From: Nitrososphaeria archaeon
Lineage (GTDB): Archaea > Thermoproteota > Nitrososphaeria > Nitrososphaerales > JANXEG01
DNA length: 64,000 bases
Direction of reading: 5' to 3'
Assembly: GCA_029775915.1 (NCBI GenBank)
Contig: JARVKA010000001.1
Span: forward strand, 224,594 to 288,593
This document shows, one piece after another, positions 2,034 to 58,637 of this stretch. Below the pieces are notes generated by a model that saw only the letters and a list, made by a program, of their open reading frames with translations, was not told the DNA's origin and ran no database searches. The position numbers and the translations under genes were made by a program. Each line of letters starts with the position of its first letter. Within the stretch, counting starts at the first letter, position 1.

Positions 2034-2326
2034 GCTTGGAGGAACTCATTATAGAGGAGGAAAAAGCACTAAAATCAATTGAAGATGCTAAAAGGCAAGC
2101 TGAGGATATCATAAATAAAGCGAAAGAAGAAGCAAGAAGAATTTTATTAACGCAACGTGAGCGAGTTGATGCAATTATACAAAGAGAGAGGGAAGAGGCT
2201 GAGAAAGAGGCTGAGAGAATTTTAAGAGAATTTAAAGAGAAGGCTGAAAGTTTTAAGAAAATCCCAAATGAAAAGTTTGAAGAAGCGGTTAATTTCGTTA
2301 TAAAAAAGGTGTTGGGAATTGAGTAG
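2030..2326 (+). CDS. A-type ATP synthase subunit H (coiled coil)
   Basis: Short Glu/Lys/Ala-rich coiled coil between F and E; 4-nt overlap with F. Confidence 0.75.
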   Translation: MSLEELIIEEEKALKSIEDAKRQAEDIINKAKEEARRILLTQRERVDAIIQREREEAEKEAERILREFKEKAESFKKIPNEKFEEAVNFVIKKVLGIE

Positions 2327-2945
2327 CGGGTTTGAGTTTATAAAGCAAGGTATTAAACAAAGAGCTTCAGCACAAATCCAACAAATTTTATTAAGTGCTG
2401 AAGAAGAGGCTAAAAAAATCATTATAAATGCTGAGAATGAAGTTAAAGAGGCGGTTATGCGCATATCCAAGCCTGAAGTTATGATAATTAGAAAAAAGAT
2501 TCTTGGATCGGCTTTAGTAGAGGGTAGAAAAGCTATACTTAATGCAAGAGAAGAAATGATATCAAAAGTCTTTGAGGAAGCTAAAAAAAGGTTGTTTGAA
2601 TTAGCTAATAAAAGATCTTCTGAATACAACACGATTCTCATAGAGTTATTAAAAGAGGCTATAAAAAAGATTGGTGAGAAAGAGGTAATCGTGAGTGGTA
2701 ATCAAAAAGATATCGATTATCTTAAGAAGAATTTAAACACCATTATTAAGAAAATTAGTAAAGAATTAGGATACGATGTTGGAATAAAGGTAAATGATGT
2801 GCCTTACAATTGTATGGGAGGAGTTATTGTTTATAATCCTAATAAGACTAAAGTTTTCTATAACACCATTGAAGGTAGATTGATTGGAATGTATGATGAA
2901 TTAAGATATGGGATTAGTAAGAAATTGTTTGAGGAGGTTAGGTAG
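2319..2945 (+). CDS. atpE: A-type ATP synthase subunit E
   Basis: N-terminal coiled coil plus C-terminal IVYNPNKTKVFYNTIEGRL. Confidence 0.85.
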   Translation: MSSGFEFIKQGIKQRASAQIQQILLSAEEEAKKIIINAENEVKEAVMRISKPEVMIIRKKILGSALVEGRKAILNAREEMISKVFEEAKKRLFELANKRSSEYNTILIELLKEAIKKIGEKEVIVSGNQKDIDYLKKNLNTIIKKISKELGYDVGIKVNDVPYNCMGGVIVYNPNKTKVFYNTIEGRLIGMYDELRYGISKKLFEEVR

Positions 2946-2947
2946 AT

Positions 2948-4708
2948 ATGTTAAAAGGTGAGATAATTAGAGTTTATGGATCACTTATTATAGGTAAGAA
3001 TGTACCGAATGCAAAAATTGGTGACGTGGTTCAAGTAGGCCCGCTAAAACTCATAGGTGAGATTATTAGAATACGTGGGAATGAAGTTTCCATTCAATGC
3101 TATGAAGATACGAGTGGCTTAAAGCCTGGCGATGAAATTTTAAATACTGAGCGGCCTTTAACTGCTGAATTGGGCCCAGGGTTAATTGGTAATATATATG
3201 ATGGTTTAGAGTTTTCAGAAAGTGTTATTCGAACAATCGCGGGAGACTTTATGAAAAAAGGTGTTAGAACAGCACCTTTAAGTAGGGATAAGAAATGGCA
3301 CTTTACACCAAAGGTTAAGAATGGCGATAAAGTTGTTGAAGGAGATATCATAGGAACTACGCGTGAGACTCTCATGATAGAGCATAGAATTTTGGTACCT
3401 GTTGGTTTAAGTGGTGTAATTCGTGAAATAAAAGAAGGTGATTATACAATTACAGACCCTATAGCTACACTTGAGTCGAATGGTAAAAAAATAGATTTAA
3501 CTATGATGCAAACATGGCCTGTGAGAATACCTAGACCTTACAAAAGCCGCTTACCATTAACAGAACCTTTATTAACTGGGCAAAGGGTTATCGATTCCTT
3601 CTTCCCAATCGCAAAGGGTGGAACAGCCGCAATACCTGGAGGCTTTGGTACTGGAAAAACGGTTACTTTACATCAAATAGCAAAGTGGGCAGCTGCTGAT
3701 ATAATTCTTTACATAGGTTGTGGAGAAAGAGGTAATGAGATGGCTGATGTCGTTACTCACTTCCCTGAGTTGGAAGATCCAAGAAGTGGTAAGAAATTGA
3801 TAGAGAGAACTATAATGATAGCGAATGTTAGTAATATGCCAGTTTCAGCTCGTGAGGCGAGTATATACATGGGCGTTACCATAGCGGAGTATTTTAGAGA
3901 TCAAGGTTATGATGTGGCTATAATGGCAGATTCAACTTCAAGATGGGCTGAGGCTTTAAGAGATATAAGTGGTAGGCTTGAGGAGATACCTGCGGAAGCT
4001 GGGTATCCAGCTTATTTGCCAGAGAGAATAGCGGAGTTTTATGAGAGAGCTGGTAGAGTTGTTACATTAGGTAGTGAGTATCGAGTAGGTTCAGTTACAA
4101 TTATGGGTGCTGTATCACCTCCAGGTGGCGATTTTAGTGAGCCTGTTACATCATTAACGTTAAGATTCGTAGGCACTTTATGGGCTTTAGATACCGCTTT
4201 AGCATTCCGTAGGCATTTCCCTGCGATTAATTGGTTAATGAGTTTTAGTAGATATGTAGAGCTTGTGAGTAAGTGGTGGCAAACTTACGATAAAGAATGG
4301 TTAAAGTATAAAACTAAAGCAACAGCTATTTTAGAGGAGGCATCGAAGATTGAGGAGATAGCTAGAATTATTGGTGAAAAAGCTTTACCTGATGATCAGC
4401 GCTTGATTTTATTGGTTGCAGAGATGATAAGAGAGGGCTTTTTAGTTCAACACGCATTTCATGAAGTTGATACTTATTGTGAGCCTGAGAAGCAAAGTAA
4501 ATTGCTTAGATTACTTATTGAGTTTTATGAGTTTACCGAACCTTTAATTAAAGCTGGAATTCCTATAGAGAAAATTAGAGAATTCAAAAGTATCGTTGAA
4601 TTAATGAGGTTAAAAGAAAGAAGAGAGGTTGAATATATCGATAAAGTTAAGAATAAAGTTCTAGAAGAAGTTAAAACTTTAGCTAAGCAATATGGGGTGG
4701 AGGTATAA
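2948..4708 (+). CDS. atpA: A-type ATP synthase subunit A (catalytic)
   Basis: P-loop [47 protein letters not shown]. Confidence 0.98.
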
Positions 4709-6098: not shown

Positions 6099-6712
6099 TG
6101 GCATTAGCAATGGGAAGGGTTAAACCAACAAAGGGCTTTTTAATCGAGTTAAAGAAGCGTATAGCATTCATTGAAGAAGGGTATAGGTTACTTAAATTAA
6201 AGAGAGAAGAGTTGGCTAAAACTATTAGATCTTATTTAGAATTTTTAGAAGCGAAAAGAGCAGATTTTGAAACTAAGATTGAAAAAGCTCTTAGTGAGAT
6301 GAGAAATGCATATGCATTTTTAGGATCGAGTGAAGTGGAGACTCAAATCAACCCTCTTGAGATGCTTACAATTCAAGTTTATCCAAAGAGTGTTATGGGA
6401 TGCTTAATACCTTATGTAAAAGAAATTAATAAGGTTAAAGTGAGGTTAAATCCAGTTTTAAGATCTGTTGCAAAAAAGTTTGAAGCTTTAATTGATGATT
6501 TAGTGAAGATGGCAGAGATAGAATCCTCTATAGAAAGAATAGCTGAAGAGTTGGGTGCAACCAATAGAAAGGTAAATGCATTGGAGAAATATGTTATACC
6601 TGAGCTTAAGCGTAGTGCAAAATATATTGAAGATATGCTCGATGAGGAGATGCTTGAAGAAGTTATAAGAACTAAGATTGTGAGAAATAAGTTAACGGGG
6701 CGCCGTGCTTAA
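6098..6712 (+). CDS. atpD: A-type ATP synthase subunit D
   Basis: VKPTKGFLIELKKRIAFIEEGYRLLKLKREEL; NALEKYVIPELKRSAKYIEDMLDEE. Confidence 0.95.
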   Translation: MALAMGRVKPTKGFLIELKKRIAFIEEGYRLLKLKREELAKTIRSYLEFLEAKRADFETKIEKALSEMRNAYAFLGSSEVETQINPLEMLTIQVYPKSVMGCLIPYVKEINKVKVRLNPVLRSVAKKFEALIDDLVKMAEIESSIERIAEELGATNRKVNALEKYVIPELKRSAKYIEDMLDEEMLEEVIRTKIVRNKLTGRRA

Positions 6713-7911
6713 TGGTTGAATATATTCTCGTTAGTTGCCATGCTTTTAAAACTCATCTTTTACCAAAGTCTATGATTTACTCTCTTTGTACGGCTGAAGA
6801 TGTGAGGAGCATTGTAGATGCTTTATTGCAAACAGATTATGGTGCAGATTTATCAAGACAAACAAAAGTCGATGCTCACACTTTAGAGAGAATTTTTAGT
6901 ACAAAGTTAGTTGAGCGATACTCACACCTTATAAAGTTGATTGAGCGATATACAGGCCTTGTAAAGTTGGTTGAGAGGCATGCGAGTCTTTTAAAGTTGG
7001 TTGAGAGGCATGCGAGTCTTTTAAGGTTGGTTGAACAATATAAGGACTTTGCTCCTTACTCTATAGGGTTTATGGAGAGTTCTTTATGGAGGATTTATGA
7101 GGAAAGTTTGGGTCAAATAGAGCCTCCTCCAAAGGGCATATGTAGTATTATTAAAGCGTATACTCGAAAACTTGAACTTCAGAATGTAATAAGAATTTTG
7201 AGGGGTAAGTTTACTAAAACGCCTAATGAACTTATTGAAGAATATCTTATCCCATTAAAAGAACTCTCTAATATTAGATTTAATGACCTTTTGAAAGCGG
7301 ATAGTATCGATGTAGCAGTTAGGATGCTTGGAAATACAATTTATAGTCAAATCACTGAAGCTTTGAAATTATCACATGAGTTTAAAAGTTTTCTACCAAT
7401 TGAAATGAAACTTTGGACTTTATATTATAATTATCTTTTAGGCGCTTTATCTAATGTTCCTAAAAGTGAAAGAGAGGATTTAAAGCGCATAATAGGGACT
7501 GAAATAGATGCTATTAATACCTTAATTTGTACTGCTTCCATCGTTTATGGTTATGGTAAAGAGTTTGTAAGAAGTCTTATTATACCATTCTCTTTCAAAG
7601 TTACGATTGATACATTCAAGATCGCTATGCAAGCTGAGAGTATAGAAACTTTAAAGAGGTTATTAAGCCCTTATGCTAAAATTATCGATCATATTGTGAA
7701 TGGAGATGATATCTCAGCTCAAGTTGAGTCATATAGATACATTCGAAAAGAGGCTGAAAAGCAACTTTTAAAAGACTCTACTTATGCCTATGTTCTCTCC
7801 TACATGTTATTATGTGAGATAGAGTATAAGGATCTTACTTTAATAGCATTAGGGAAGCAATATGGCTTAAAGCCAGAAGAGTTAAGACCTCGTCTCATAA
7901 GTTCAGATTAA
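6712..7911 (+). CDS. atpC: A-type ATP synthase subunit C
   Basis: Position in operon; YENV-type alpha-helical C subunit with RIIGTEIDAINTLICTASIVYG motif. Confidence 0.85.
   Translation: MVEYILVSCHAFKTHLLPKSMIYSLCTAEDVRSIVDALLQTDYGADLSRQTKVDAHTLERIFSTKLVERYSHLIKLIERYTGLVKLVERHASLLKLVERHASLLRLVEQYKDFAPYSIGFMESSLWRIYEESLGQIEPPPKGICSIIKAYTRKLELQNVIRILRGKFTKTPNELIEEYLIPLKELSNIRFNDLLKADSIDVAVRMLGNTIYSQITEALKLSHEFKSFLPIEMKLWTLYYNYLLGALSNVPKSEREDLKRIIGTEIDAINTLICTASIVYGYGKEFVRSLIIPFSFKVTIDTFKIAMQAESIETLKRLLSPYAKIIDHIVNGDDISAQVESYRYIRKEAEKQLLKDSTYAYVLSYMLLCEIEYKDLTLIALGKQYGLKPEELRPRLISSD
6904..7053 (+). repeat. Five in-frame 30-bp (10-aa) tandem repeats within atpC
   Basis: KLVERYSHLI/KLIERYTGLV/KLVERHASLL/KLVERHASLL/RLVEQYKDFA; units 6964-6993 and 6994-7023 are nucleotide-identical. 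Confidence 0.95.
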
Positions 7912-42955: not shown

Positions 42956-44119
42956 TTACCCAATTTTCTTTCCTGTAACCGCTTTCTCAACTATAAGTTT
43001 ACCTTCTTTAAATCTTTTGATATTAAATGGTTTAATAAGAGACGATTCTACACCATCAATAATGAGTTGAGCAATAAGCTTCCCCAATAAAGGTGCCATC
43101 ATAAACCCGTGACCACTACCACCATTTATTTGAATAAATCCCTCTACTTCTTCAACACTTCCAATTATAGGAGAACCATCTGGGGTAACATCATATAATC
43201 CAGCCCATTGCCTCAAAACCCTTACATTCTTCATTGGCGGTAAAATATAAACAAGATTTTTCGCACAACTTTCAAGAAAGTTAAGACTAGCTTTTATATT
43301 TGGTGTGGGTGGTTCATCAATCCTCGTAGTGCCTAGAACCTCTCCTCTTAAACTTTGATGATAAGCTGCTCCATAACTCAACATTATTAGTATAGGGTCT
43401 AAGAAATGTTTCAAAGGCTCAGTAACTAATGCATGCCTACGAATAACTGTTATAGGAAGATTCACACCTACCGTTTTAGCAATCTCTGCAGCGTGAGCTG
43501 AAGCAGCATTAACAACGATTGAAGTGTAAATCTCACCACGATCCGTAATAACAGACTTTACTCTACCATCGCCTTGAGTTAATTTGATAGCTTTGGTATA
43601 GGTATAAATCTTCACACCCATTTTTAAAGCTGCTCGGGCATAAGCTCTAACTACTGCATCATGATGAGCTGAGCCATCCTCAGGATTAAATAAACCGCCA
43701 AAAATTTTATTCGCATCAATTTGTGGTATCTTCATTTTTACTTCACTTGGTGAAAGAAATTGAGATTTTAATCCAAAAGATTTATGAAGATTTATCCATT
43801 TTTGATAAGCTTCAATCTCATCTTCAGATAATGCTAAAAATAAATAACCATTTTGATGAAAAAGGGTATTGTAACCTAATTCTTGATTAAGATTTTTCCA
43901 TAATTTAATACATTCCTTCATTAATACAATAGTTTCAGGTGTTGTAAAAGAGGCTCTTATCCCACATAAGCATCTCGTAGTAGCACCACTCCCCAAATAA
44001 CCTTTCTCCAATACGATTACTTTCTTTAACCCTCCCTTTGCTAAATTGTAAGCTACAGCTAAGCCACTAATCCCTCCACCTATGATAACAACATCTGCTT
44101 CCTTCTCCAAATTTATCAC
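42956..44119 (-). CDS. FAD-dependent oxidoreductase, DAO family (sarcosine oxidase beta/amino acid dehydrogenase-like)
   Basis: VVIIGGGISGLAVAYNLAKGG; GATTRCLCGIRASF; YDVTPDGSPIIG; INGGSGHGFMMAPLLGKL. Confidence 0.92.
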   Translation of the reverse strand: MINLEKEADVVIIGGGISGLAVAYNLAKGGLKKVIVLEKGYLGSGATTRCLCGIRASFTTPETIVLMKECIKLWKNLNQELGYNTLFHQNGYLFLALSEDEIEAYQKWINLHKSFGLKSQFLSPSEVKMKIPQIDANKIFGGLFNPEDGSAHHDAVVRAYARAALKMGVKIYTYTKAIKLTQGDGRVKSVITDRGEIYTSIVVNAASAHAAEIAKTVGVNLPITVIRRHALVTEPLKHFLDPILIMLSYGAAYHQSLRGEVLGTTRIDEPPTPNIKASLNFLESCAKNLVYILPPMKNVRVLRQWAGLYDVTPDGSPIIGSVEEVEGFIQINGGSGHGFMMAPLLGKLIAQLIIDGVESSLIKPFNIKRFKEGKLIVEKAVTGKKIG

Positions 44120-45971: not shown

Positions 45972-47876
45972 ATGTGGATAATTCTAACGTTAAGAAGGTT
46001 ATTTAAATGCCTTTATCTAATTAAAATTAATAAAAATAAATTTAATAACCTCCAATGGTTAAGTGATAGCAAATTGGAAGATTATAATAAAGAAAATCGT
46101 AAAGTTAAGATCGAATTAGATAATAAAACCCTTTACGTTGATAGCGAATTAAATTTAGCTTTAGCATTATATAACTCAGGCATAAAAGTGCTGAGTCGAA
46201 GCATTAAATACCATAGGCCTCGGGGTATCTTTTGCCTCTCAGGAAAATGTTCAAATTGCCTCATGACTGTAAATGGTTTACCGAATGTTAGAGCTTGCCA
46301 AACTAATGTGAGTGAGGGGTTAAAAGTAAAGGTTCAAAATGCTTTTCCAAATGGTGAAAGGGATTTTCTTTCAATTCTTGATAAACTTAGCTTTTTAATG
46401 CCCGTAGGCTTTTATTACAAGTACTTAGCTAAACCAAGAATCCTTTGGGAACTTTCCAAAAGATTAATACAATCACTCACAGGTTTGGGCAAACTCCCTA
46501 AAGAGGAAGAACTTTGTATTATTGGTAAAGAGCCAATTCAAAGTATTGAATGTGATGTAGTAGTAATAGGCGGAGGAATTGCGGGTATATCAGCATCTTT
46601 AGAGGCTGTAAAAACGGGTGTTAAAGTAATATTGATAGATGAAAACTCCCAATTGGGTGGTAAAGCGAGCCTTTGGAGGTATATGGATGCTAATGAGAGA
46701 AGTTTTCTTTCAACAATAATTCATGAATTGGAGGCTTATGAAGGGCGTGGCTTATCCATTTTAAGAAACTCTGTAGCTTTTGGTTTTTATGAAGGTAATG
46801 AATTAGGTGTATTATGTGGAAATAAGATTTTAAGGATTCGTGGCAAAGCCACAATCTTTGCCACAGGTTCTTACGATAAGATGTATATCTTTGAGAATAA
46901 CGATTTGCCAAATATTTTCACCACCTCCGGTATTTTAAAGCTCGTTAATCTTTATCACGTTAAACCATTCGGCGATGGTGTGATAATAGGTTCTAATGGA
47001 TTAGCGATAAAATTGGCTTATGAGTTAATACAATCTGGGGTTAAAATTAAAGCTGTAGCAGAGATTAATGAGATTATGAATAAAGATAATGCTTCAAAAC
47101 TTCAAGAACTCGGTGTAGAAGTTTATGCTAATCACACTATAGATAAAGCTGAGGGGACAAAAGGGGTAAAGCGCGCAACATTAATCCAAATCGATAAGGA
47201 TGGAAAAAAGATTGAGGGGACTAGTATAAAGATAAATTGCAACTTTATTTGTATCGCATCATACCCTCAACCCACTTTTGAGTTAATCTCACAAGCTGAA
47301 TGCAAAATGAATTATTCAGCTGAAAGAGGAGGTTTCATACCCAATCGTGATGAATATCTCTCCATATCGCCAAATATTTACGTTGTCGGAGATGCTGGTG
47401 GTATTTGCCACTTTAATCTTAAGATTTTAGAAGGCCGTCTTGCAGGTATATCGGCAGCTATAAATGCGGGATCACAACAAAAAGGGCTTATCGATTTAAG
47501 AGAGGATTTAGTTAAGTATATAGAAAAAGAAATGATGAACTTACCAATAGAGTATACTTTGGGTGCGAAGAAAGAAGATTTGATAATAAAGCATAATAAA
47601 AATTTAGGTAAAAGCTTCATTTGCTTTTGTCTAGATATTTTAGAAAAAGATATTGTAGACAGTGTTAAGGAAGGTTATAGAGATATTGAAGAAATAAAAA
47701 GATATACGGGTATAGGGACTGGGATATGCCAAGGAAAGCGTTGCCTTATTAATGCTATAAGGGTTTTTGCTAGAGAGCTTAACCTTTCTTTAAATGATCC
47801 AATTATTCACATCCCTACACAAAGACCGCCAATTACACCAATACTCTTAGGTGTACTAGCTAAGGTAAGTACATAG
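45972..47876 (+). CDS. FAD/NAD-dependent oxidoreductase with N-terminal 2Fe-2S and C-terminal BFD-like domains (sarcosine oxidase alpha/HcnA-HcnB-like)
   Basis: CLSGKCSNCLMTVNGLPNVRAC; VVVIGGGIAGISASLEAVKTGVKVILIDENSQLGGK; FICFCLDILEKDIVDSVKEGYRDIEEIKRYTGIGTGICQGKRC. Start uncertain. Confidence 0.9.
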   Translation: MWIILTLRRLFKCLYLIKINKNKFNNLQWLSDSKLEDYNKENRKVKIELDNKTLYVDSELNLALALYNSGIKVLSRSIKYHRPRGIFCLSGKCSNCLMTVNGLPNVRACQTNVSEGLKVKVQNAFPNGERDFLSILDKLSFLMPVGFYYKYLAKPRILWELSKRLIQSLTGLGKLPKEEELCIIGKEPIQSIECDVVVIGGGIAGISASLEAVKTGVKVILIDENSQLGGKASLWRYMDANERSFLSTIIHELEAYEGRGLSILRNSVAFGFYEGNELGVLCGNKILRIRGKATIFATGSYDKMYIFENNDLPNIFTTSGILKLVNLYHVKPFGDGVIIGSNGLAIKLAYELIQSGVKIKAVAEINEIMNKDNASKLQELGVEVYANHTIDKAEGTKGVKRATLIQIDKDGKKIEGTSIKINCNFICIASYPQPTFELISQAECKMNYSAERGGFIPNRDEYLSISPNIYVVGDAGGICHFNLKILEGRLAGISAAINAGSQQKGLIDLREDLVKYIEKEMMNLPIEYTLGAKKEDLIIKHNKNLGKSFICFCLDILEKDIVDSVKEGYRDIEEIKRYTGIGTGICQGKRCLINAIRVFARELNLSLNDPIIHIPTQRPPITPILLGVLAKVST

Positions 47877-54225: not shown

Positions 54226-55491
54226 ATGGATTATGATATTATAATAGTGGGCGCTGGTATCTTAGGCTTATCCTCTGCTTACTACCTTCAAAAGAACAAT
54301 CCAAATAAAAGAATTTTGATTATAGAAAAAGAGGGGGGTATTGCTCAAGGAGAGACAGCAAAAGCTGTTGGAATGTTTCGAAATATCTTTACTTCATATA
54401 CAAATCGTCTTTTAGCAGATACCTCGATAAACTTTTATATACACATTCAAAAAGAAGTTATGGATATAAACTTAAAGTTTGATAAATATCTTTGGTTAGT
54501 AAGTAAGGAGCAATTTGAAAGATTTTCAAGCATAATAGAATCAATGATAACTTCAAAAGAGATTAAAATTCTTGAAAGAGAAGAGTTGAGAAAAATAAAA
54601 GGAATGAATTTAGATGTTGAAAGTGATGAGGAAGCTAAAATTATGGGGCTTAAAAATATATACAAAGGATTACTCGGTCTTAAATGTGGCTCTTTAGATC
54701 AGCATTTACTTGCGAGATATTATAAAGAACAATTCGAAAATTTAGGTGGAGAAATTCAATTTCATACAAAAGTTAATAGGTTAATAATTGCACCAAAAAA
54801 GAAGTTAGGAATATCAAAGGAGCCATTTGTATGGCAGGATTCAAGAGTTGCTGGAGTATTAACCAATAAGGGTGAAATGTATGCTGATAAAATAATTCTT
54901 GCAACTGGAGCTTTAACAAATGAACTTTTAGATCCTATTGGTATAGATAGCCATATGAAGCCTAAAAAGAGGCAAGTATTCCAAATTCAAGACTCTCATT
55001 TAAATGAGCTTTTAAATATTGAAGGATTTAATGATGAAGGAACAATACCATTTACCATTTTACCAAAGAGTGGGATTTATATGAGGCCTGTAAAAGGAGA
55101 GAAATCTTTTTGGATCGGTTGTGCTGATGATTTAGGTAGATCGTTCAGCTTAGACACAACACCAGAGGAGGATTTTTATTATTATAATATTTATCCAGTT
55201 TTAATCAAATATTTTCCACAATTTACTAACTTAAGAGTTAAGAATTTATGGGCAGGTCTTTATGCATATAATACTATAGATGGGATGCCATATATTTTTG
55301 AGAAATATGGTGTGATAGTAGTTACAGGTTGTAGTGGGAGTGGCTTAATGAAAGCAGATGCAATTGGGAGGATTGTTGATGGACTTTATAGAGGAGAAGA
55401 GTTTGTAAGGTTGTATGGTAATTTAAATTTTAGAGTTAGTGATATAGGTGTGGAGAAAAGAAATGTAGATAGGGAAGAATTTTTACTTTAA
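54226..55491 (+). CDS. FAD-dependent oxidoreductase, DAO family
   Basis: DIIIVGAGILGLSSAYYLQKNNPNKRILIIEKEGGIAQGETAKAVGMFRN; VVTGCSGSGLMKADAIGRIVDG. Confidence 0.9.
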   Translation: MDYDIIIVGAGILGLSSAYYLQKNNPNKRILIIEKEGGIAQGETAKAVGMFRNIFTSYTNRLLADTSINFYIHIQKEVMDINLKFDKYLWLVSKEQFERFSSIIESMITSKEIKILEREELRKIKGMNLDVESDEEAKIMGLKNIYKGLLGLKCGSLDQHLLARYYKEQFENLGGEIQFHTKVNRLIIAPKKKLGISKEPFVWQDSRVAGVLTNKGEMYADKIILATGALTNELLDPIGIDSHMKPKKRQVFQIQDSHLNELLNIEGFNDEGTIPFTILPKSGIYMRPVKGEKSFWIGCADDLGRSFSLDTTPEEDFYYYNIYPVLIKYFPQFTNLRVKNLWAGLYAYNTIDGMPYIFEKYGVIVVTGCSGSGLMKADAIGRIVDGLYRGEEFVRLYGNLNFRVSDIGVEKRNVDREEFLL

Positions 55492-55552
55492 TATAATGGG
55501 ATTTTAACATTAACTAATTATTTAAAGTTAGAATCTTTTTAATTTTGAATTG

Positions 55553-56797
55553 ATGTTTTATATTGCTGAAAAGAATTTAAATAATTGTAAAAAATGTGGT
55601 GCGTGTGATGAAATCGTTGCATGTTCGAGTATGAGAGTTGGTTATGTGGAAGAGTGTATAGGATGTGGAGCTTGCTTTATTACATGCCCAAATGAAGCTA
55701 TTATAATAAAAGAAAAACCGAGAGAAAAAGAGATTAAGATTAAGGTAAATGGAGAGAGTTTTTCAATTCCAGAGAAGATAACAGTTAAAAAAGCTCTTGA
55801 GTTTATTGGCTATAAAATTGGTAAATTCCCTAATGAGGGTGATTTATTCGTTCCTTGTGAAGTTGGAGGTTGTTGGAGTTGTGCAATTATAATTAATGGA
55901 GAGATAAAACCGAGTTGTGTCACAGGAGTAAAAGAAGGGATGAAGATTAAAACTCAACTCCCAAAAGATTACAAACCAAAAAGGCTCATTCATGGTTGGA
56001 TGGGCCATTCTGTAGGAGGTGTTGGAACCCCTTGGTGGCTAAAAAAGGGCTATGGTAGTATAGAAGTAGCTACTTTCGCTTGCGGTTGTAATTTTCGTTG
56101 CCCTCAATGCCAAAATTGGACAACGACTTATTGTGGAAAAGAAGTTGCACTTACGCCAAGAGAAGCAGCTTTGCTCATGACCCATACAAGAAGAATGCAT
56201 GGAGTTAATAGAATGGCTATTTCAGGTGGAGAATGCACTTTAAATAAACCATGGTTAATTCAATACATTCAAGAGTTAAAGAAACTCAATCCAGATGAAA
56301 AAGCTAGATTCCATATTGATACAAATGCTTCGATTCTCACAAAAGATTATATCGATGAGTTAGTAGAGGCTGGAATGACAGATATAGGTCCAGATTTAAA
56401 AGGTTTGAAGCTTGAGACTTTTATGAAGATAACTGGGTTAAAAGATGAAAAAATTGCAGAAAAATATTATCGAACGAGTTGGGAAGCAGTAAAATATCTT
56501 ATTAATAATTATAAGGATAAAGTTTTCATTGGTATTGGGATTCCTTATAATAAAGATTTAATTTCATTAGAAGAAATAGCTAAAATGGGTGATGAGATTT
56601 ATAAACTTGACCCAGAAGTTCAAGTTTGTGTTTTAGATTATAGACCAGAGTTTAGAAGTAAGATTTTAAGGCCAAGTTATTATGAAATGGTTAAAGTTTG
56701 GGATATTTTAAAATCTACTGGGTTAAAAACTGTTATTTGTCAAACTGAATATGGGCATATTGGACCAAAAGAGCCGAGTTTATCAAGATTCTATTAA
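55553..56797 (+). CDS. Radical SAM protein with N-terminal dicluster 4Fe-4S and 2Fe-2S ferredoxin-like domains
   Basis: CKKCGACDEIVAC...CIGCGACFITCP; PCEVGGCWSCAIIINGEIKPSC; radical SAM CNFRCPQC; ISGGECTLN. Confidence 0.88.
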   Translation: MFYIAEKNLNNCKKCGACDEIVACSSMRVGYVEECIGCGACFITCPNEAIIIKEKPREKEIKIKVNGESFSIPEKITVKKALEFIGYKIGKFPNEGDLFVPCEVGGCWSCAIIINGEIKPSCVTGVKEGMKIKTQLPKDYKPKRLIHGWMGHSVGGVGTPWWLKKGYGSIEVATFACGCNFRCPQCQNWTTTYCGKEVALTPREAALLMTHTRRMHGVNRMAISGGECTLNKPWLIQYIQELKKLNPDEKARFHIDTNASILTKDYIDELVEAGMTDIGPDLKGLKLETFMKITGLKDEKIAEKYYRTSWEAVKYLINNYKDKVFIGIGIPYNKDLISLEEIAKMGDEIYKLDPEVQVCVLDYRPEFRSKILRPSYYEMVKVWDILKSTGLKTVICQTEYGHIGPKEPSLSRFY

Positions 56798-57949: not shown

Positions 57950-58637
57950 GGCTCTGTTACTTTAAGCCATCACCTCCTTAATGAGCTCTATCAATTTAAG
58001 ATATTCTGGCTGTTTGTGAAGGATAAAGGCTTTAAGCCATTTTTATATATGCTTAAGGCTACATTCTCTCTTCCTACATGGATAATACTCATTAAAGCTC
58101 TCAATTCTATCTTTAAAATATTGAATAGCTCTCTCGATGATGCTCTTATAATCTTCATAAAGAAGCCTATGATCCAATCCTAAGCTCTTACAAGCTTTTT
58201 GATACCATAGTGCACCATCTGTATAAACAGTATGCTTTCCATAATGCCTTATTAGCTTCTTTAGAAAGAGCTCTGCTGTAAGAATACTTCTCATTAATGA
58301 GAATGATAAAGCAAGGAAGCGATGTTGATAAGGCTCATAAGCTACCCAAACCCATCCTTCTAAACCCTTAACTTTCACCATCGTTTCATCCACAAGAAAG
58401 TAATGGATACGTTTAGGCTTGAAAAACTTCTCTAAAGGAGCTAAATCTTGAATCCATCTCTATATGGATACATGGCTTCTTTTAATGAAGATCCTCAAAG
58501 CCCTTGATGAAGGCTAAGCCTTCAAAAACCAAATATACGCTATATAGGATTATAGCTATAGGAGTCCTATCCCTAATGAACATAAGTCATCACCTTAAGT
58601 TCCTTAGGGAGAAGGCTCCTCTTAAAGTAACAGAGCC
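57950..58637. mobile_element. IS6-family-like insertion sequence, degenerate (688 bp)
   Basis: Perfect 17-bp TIR GGCTCTGTTACTTTAAG (57950-57966) / CTTAAAGTAACAGAGCC (58621-58637); flanking 9-bp direct repeat AATTTAATG (57941-57949, 58638-58646). Confidence 0.92.
57965..58583 (-). pseudogene. Disrupted IS6-like DDE transposase
   Basis: Core ORF 58043-58393 carries DETMVKVKG...YTDGALWY...IIERAIQYFKDR. Upstream: in-frame TAG at 58460-58462 (VSI*RWIQDLAPLEKFFKPKRIHYFLVDETM) and a frameshift near FEGLAFIK/ALRIFIKRSHVSI. Downstream: TAA in HI*KWLKAFILHKQPEYLKLIELIKEVMA. Confidence 0.85.

Follow-up and report, generated by a model that had tools for sequence, protein, structure and literature searches.

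The 64,000-nt stretch of Nitrososphaeria archaeon DNA analysed here (the window) encodes at 55553-56797 a radical SAM (rSAM) protein that belongs to the PflA-like branch and carries a ferredoxin chain at its N-terminus, a combination that we did not find described in the open-access literature. This protein, called the fusion below, belongs to a discrete and widespread family. It is probably a stand-alone, internally wired PflA-like rSAM enzyme, in which the [2Fe-2S] domain relays electrons to the SAM cluster and the target is something other than a glycyl radical enzyme (GRE). More tentatively, the family could represent a widespread group of [2Fe-2S]-wired rSAM enzymes of anaerobic archaea and bacteria with an undescribed, GRE-independent reaction or protein modification that may be connected with core anaerobic carbon metabolism. 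Anaerobic archaea that lack pyruvate formate-lyase commonly carry PflA-like genes, and the fusion family is one PflA-like group of distinct, invariant architecture that cannot serve known GREs in at least some of its hosts. Its target matters in ANME-1, Archaeoglobi, Bathyarchaeota and sulfate reducers, and an rSAM enzyme that brings its own electron chain would be well suited to studying how such enzymes are reduced in vivo.

Architecture and closest known proteins

The reading frame is intact and encodes 414 aa from the ATG at 55553, which is its natural start and agrees with the start given in the original prediction; the protein would have 415 aa if an in-frame TTG at 55550 were counted, and residues are numbered here with this TTG as residue 1 (Table 1). 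Pfam and the cysteine motifs both bear out the predicted order of three modules, a dicluster 4Fe-4S module, a 2Fe-2S domain and an rSAM core. The N-terminus holds C13-C16-C19-C25 and C36-C39-C42-C46-P, the motif of a two-[4Fe-4S] module, followed by a plant-type (Fer2_4) [2Fe-2S] motif, C103-x4-C108-x2-C111-x11-C123, and by the rSAM motif CX3CX2C in the form C180-x3-C184-x2-C187 (nt 56087-56110). All three Pfam matches (Fer4, 7.7e-5; Fer2_4, 8.1e-8; Radical_SAM, 3.3e-18) exceed the curated cut-offs. Recent transfer of the gene was rejected, because its GC content equals that of the window (33.7% vs 33.8%).

Table 1. Positions of the fusion, its modules and the adjoining genes in the window
Feature	Position	Strand	Basis or remark
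DAO-family FAD oxidoreductase	54226..55491	+	DAO 2.2e-45; directly upstream of the fusion, 61-base gap
4Fe-4S/4Fe-4S - 2Fe-2S - radical SAM fusion	55553..56797	+	ORF, Pfam, 84 relatives, AlphaFold2 pLDDT 96.3
Two-[4Fe-4S] ferredoxin module, CX2CX2CX5C...CX2CX2CX3CP, residues 13-47	55586..55690	+	Fer4, Cys conservation
[2Fe-2S] ferredoxin domain (Fer2_4), residues 60-143	55727..55978	+	Fer2_4, ligands C103, C108, C111, C123
Signature HxxGGVGTPWWLK, residues 153-165	56006..56044	+	Invariant residues across relatives
PflA-like radical SAM core, residues 167-406; SGGE, DTN, DLK motifs	56048..56767	+	Radical_SAM, 3cb8 fold, PflA profile alignment
Second PflA/YjjW-like radical SAM protein, 346 aa	56794..57834	-	ORF; convergent with the fusion, 3' ends overlap by 4 bases

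An AlphaFold2 model of the fusion, built with 70 relatives, reached a pLDDT of 96.3 and a pTM of 0.94. The nearest solved structure to this model was PflA (3cb8; E = 1.8e-10, TMt 0.78), and the profile alignment of the fusion with PflA spans CX3CX2C, SGGE, DTN and DLK, confirming the PflA-related core that had been claimed. The next structural matches (lipoyl synthase, viperin, NifB and MoaA) were all to the core fold only, and a viral fold library returned generic rSAM matches only. Identity as a viperin was rejected, with NF038283 at 25.6 bits against a cut-off of 180 and PADLOC pVip at 26.5 bits over the rSAM core only. The original prediction had also related the core to AmmeMemoRadiSam proteins; the rSAM protein of that name (TIGR04337) is PflA-related like the fusion, but the 25 best NCBIfam matches, extending to E = 5.6e-4, do not include it.

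For the [2Fe-2S] domain, the best PDB match obtained with the family profile was HydA1 of an electron-bifurcating [FeFe] hydrogenase (E = 2.8e-11), and the domain also aligned with NuoG/complex I 75 kDa subunits; [2Fe-2S] domains of the HydA1/NuoG type are electron relays in known proteins. Its cysteine spacing, C-x4-C-x2-C-x11-C, is identical to that of a SoxA-like protein encoded elsewhere in the window (45972-47876, + strand; 634 aa, with Fer2_4, an FAD domain and SO_alpha_A3). In HydA1, NuoG and the SoxA-like protein this domain is part of a hydrogenase, complex I and a flavin oxidase, respectively, whereas in the fusion it is joined to an rSAM core. A working analogy is offered by TYW1 of eukaryotes, also an rSAM enzyme with its own electron-donor domain, which differs in having a fused flavodoxin instead of iron-sulfur domains and tRNA as its target. 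The 4Fe-4S/2Fe-2S/rSAM architecture might, as the original prediction allowed, already have been assigned to a known activity; in the open-access literature (subscription journals lay outside the coverage) we found no assigned activity and no description of it.

Distribution and conservation of the family

Relatives were gathered from 84,980 species genomes with peptide patterns of the rSAM region, GGVGTP[WY]W among them, and 80 of the 126 relatives that passed were taken as loci. Among these, the archaeal hosts are Archaeoglobi, Methanothrix, Methanocellales, Methanomicrobiales, ANME-1, Alkanophaga, Bathyarchaeota, Methanomethylicota, Nezhaarchaeota and Asgard lineages, and the bacterial hosts include Desulfobacterales, Thermodesulfovibrio, Syntrophomonadaceae and Dehalococcoidia. 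Within the phylum of the window, the gene occurred in 62 of 398 sampled genomes, nearly always in one copy, and the matches listed all had E < 1e-155. No plasmid homologues were found. The gene is occasionally decayed, with an in-frame TAG at residue 69 in one case (L144, G370) and at the position of Trp163 in another (L146, G542). One contig labelled Candidatus Nitrosotalea (L092) falls inside ANME-1 (Methanophagales) in the tree and is probably mis-binned.

Conservation of the [2Fe-2S] cysteines, on which the original prediction hung, was checked in 84 relatives with about 47-73% identity to the query: all four are invariant with their x4/x2/x11 spacing (84/84), and they account for four of the only five invariant columns inside the domain. 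The three rSAM cysteines are likewise invariant (84/84), as are H153, G156, G157, T160 and P161 of the HxxGGVGTPWWLK signature (84/84, partly circular because GGVGTP[WY]W was a search pattern). Since the relatives were collected by rSAM-region patterns, the invariance of the [2Fe-2S] ligands is non-circular, whereas that of the rSAM cysteines shares the partial circularity of GGVGTP. Fer2_4 was matched by 69/70 family members.

The eight [4Fe-4S] cysteines are present in 73-76 of the 75-76 alignment rows that cover the region. The module is absent from eight proteins of Desulfobacterota and Myxococcota, which form one clade in the tree (support 100/100), pointing to a single loss, and no separate ferredoxin gene replacing it was recognised upstream in this clade. 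The full wire is thus not essential. The [2Fe-2S] ligands are strictly kept even where the [4Fe-4S] module was lost, which argues that the [2Fe-2S] centre is the essential auxiliary cluster.

Proposed electron route, target and competing readings

A built-in electron relay in the fusion is plausible. Starting from the observed modules, ligand invariance, PflA-like fold and SAM-site motifs, together with the absence of GREs and of a gene partner, we infer the cluster types, the direction of electron flow, SAM cleavage and the class of target as follows. Electrons from a cellular low-potential donor would enter the N-terminal two-[4Fe-4S] module or, in the clade that lacks it, go straight to the [2Fe-2S] domain, which would pass them to the SAM-bound [4Fe-4S] cluster. 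SAM would then be reductively cleaved to a 5'-deoxyadenosyl radical, and this radical would take an H atom from a non-GRE target, most probably some protein or metabolite that takes part in core anaerobic metabolism.

The [2Fe-2S] domain might instead take up an electron after a substrate radical has formed, making the enzyme a net dehydrogenase; electron removal at this stage has been proposed for the auxiliary clusters of SPASM enzymes. Such an electron exit would suit the [2Fe-2S] cysteines, which are stricter than the [4Fe-4S] module and outlast it, but it is unlikely, as no SPASM/Twitch domain was matched in the fusion or its family and relays of the ferredoxin type more commonly serve to supply electrons.

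The core of the fusion resembles a GRE activase, and a GRE partner was therefore sought in the genomes. With PflA (PDB 3cb8/3c8f) and the GRE activases the fusion shares CX3CX2C, the barrel fold and the SGGE, DTN and DLK motifs around SAM, and the best NCBIfam match to its rSAM core is NrdG2 (TIGR02495; E = 1.5e-14), likenesses that favor an activase of the PflA or NrdG2 type, with either a PFL-type GRE or an anaerobic ribonucleotide reductase as its partner. The NrdG2 match, however, scored 53.8 bits, far under the cut-off of 131.15, and there is no NrdD in the genome of the window. The N-terminal [4Fe-4S] and [2Fe-2S] domains also set the fusion apart; where GRE activases have ferredoxin modules, these are of the [4Fe-4S] type and follow the CX3CX2C motif. 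By inspection the fusion lacks DGxGxR, a motif that precedes the rSAM cluster in GRE activases, and GGVGTP apparently takes its place in a register set by eye, the HMM alignment beginning after this stretch. In PflA it is Asp16 that holds the glycyl peptide in place (PMC9326890).

In the genome of the window, which is 99.15% complete at 1.47 Mb, none of the models Gly_radical PF01228, NRDD PF13597 and PFL-like PF02901 was matched, and the cognate glycyl-radical target envisaged in the original prediction was not detected there. Some match to PF01228 or PF13597 occurs in 50/57 gene-bearing genomes, as an activase would lead one to expect, but PF01228 (PFL-type GREs) is absent from 45 of the 57 and PF13597 from 12, and neither is found in seven, namely the genome of the window and six others. 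Moreover, the NRDD matches examined in four Nitrososphaeria genomes (G001, G052, G059 and G293) are proteins of ~700-730 aa with an HTH-like start and no glycyl motif; together with the seven genomes that have neither match, at least 11/57 are thus without a canonical GRE. A GRE partner was accordingly rejected both for the genome of the window and as a rule of the family. The 80 loci also count against an activase, having no recurrent neighbour gene beside the fusion beyond close relatives; those that do recur are lineage-specific. On present evidence the fusion is not a GRE activase, a role to which we give very little probability.

NrdD-like proteins that start with an HTH-like segment and lack the glycyl motif sit in Nitrososphaeria and Methanomethylicota genomes, with HTH-fused examples of ~700-760 aa at L126:3160-5259, L127:55-2154, L128:3086-5185, L130:2683-4740 and L133:2549-4831. 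They appear to be non-catalytic or regulatory relatives of NrdD.

The convergent 346-aa protein, YjjW-like with an inserted CX2CX2CX9C, is a possible associate of the fusion. That the two form a functional pair acting on a shared target is suggested by the recurrence of the convergent, 4-base-overlapping arrangement in an Archaeoglobaceae contig (L035; second rSAM gene at 2258-3298), where the two proteins are 72.6% and 74% identical to those of the window. A pair of this kind is nevertheless improbable: the genes are adjacent in these two loci only, and a relative of the second rSAM protein occurs in only 27/57 fusion-bearing genomes and was not detected in a genome of the same genus (G001). 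Sacrifice of the [2Fe-2S] cluster as a sulfur donor, prompted by the biotin synthase arrangement of a [2Fe-2S] cluster beside the rSAM cluster, has next to no probability, as its ligands belong to a Fer2_4 ferredoxin domain of their own, an electron relay in known proteins, whereas those of BioB lie in the barrel, and as lipoyl synthase matched in the core fold only.

Metabolic association and surrounding genes

Among 61 related genomes, acetyl-CoA synthase was present in 4/4 gene-bearing and 12/57 gene-free genomes (hypergeometric p about 0.0035, uncorrected for kinship), a suggestive link. Across the wider set it was found in only 35/57 gene-bearing genomes, and the association therefore pins down no pathway; the gene belongs to anaerobes.

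The DAO-family gene upstream lies on the same strand as the fusion, in a neighbourhood that is not conserved in other relatives. No conserved small ORF or precursor peptide was seen beside the fusion beyond close relatives. Next to the two rSAM genes, at 58043-58393 (- strand), lies a fragment of an IS240/IS6-type DDE transposase.

Elsewhere in the window, the SoxA-like protein at 45972-47876 matches TIGR01372 only up to position 597 of 996, its C-terminal part being missing, and a SoxB-like oxidase (42956-44119) is encoded near genes for a branched-chain-amino-acid-type ABC transporter. In the region of the A-type ATPase operon, an ORF at 6712-7911 (+ strand) has an internally repeated segment close to the N-terminus (LIERYTG.., LVERHAS.., LVERHAS.., LVEQYKD).
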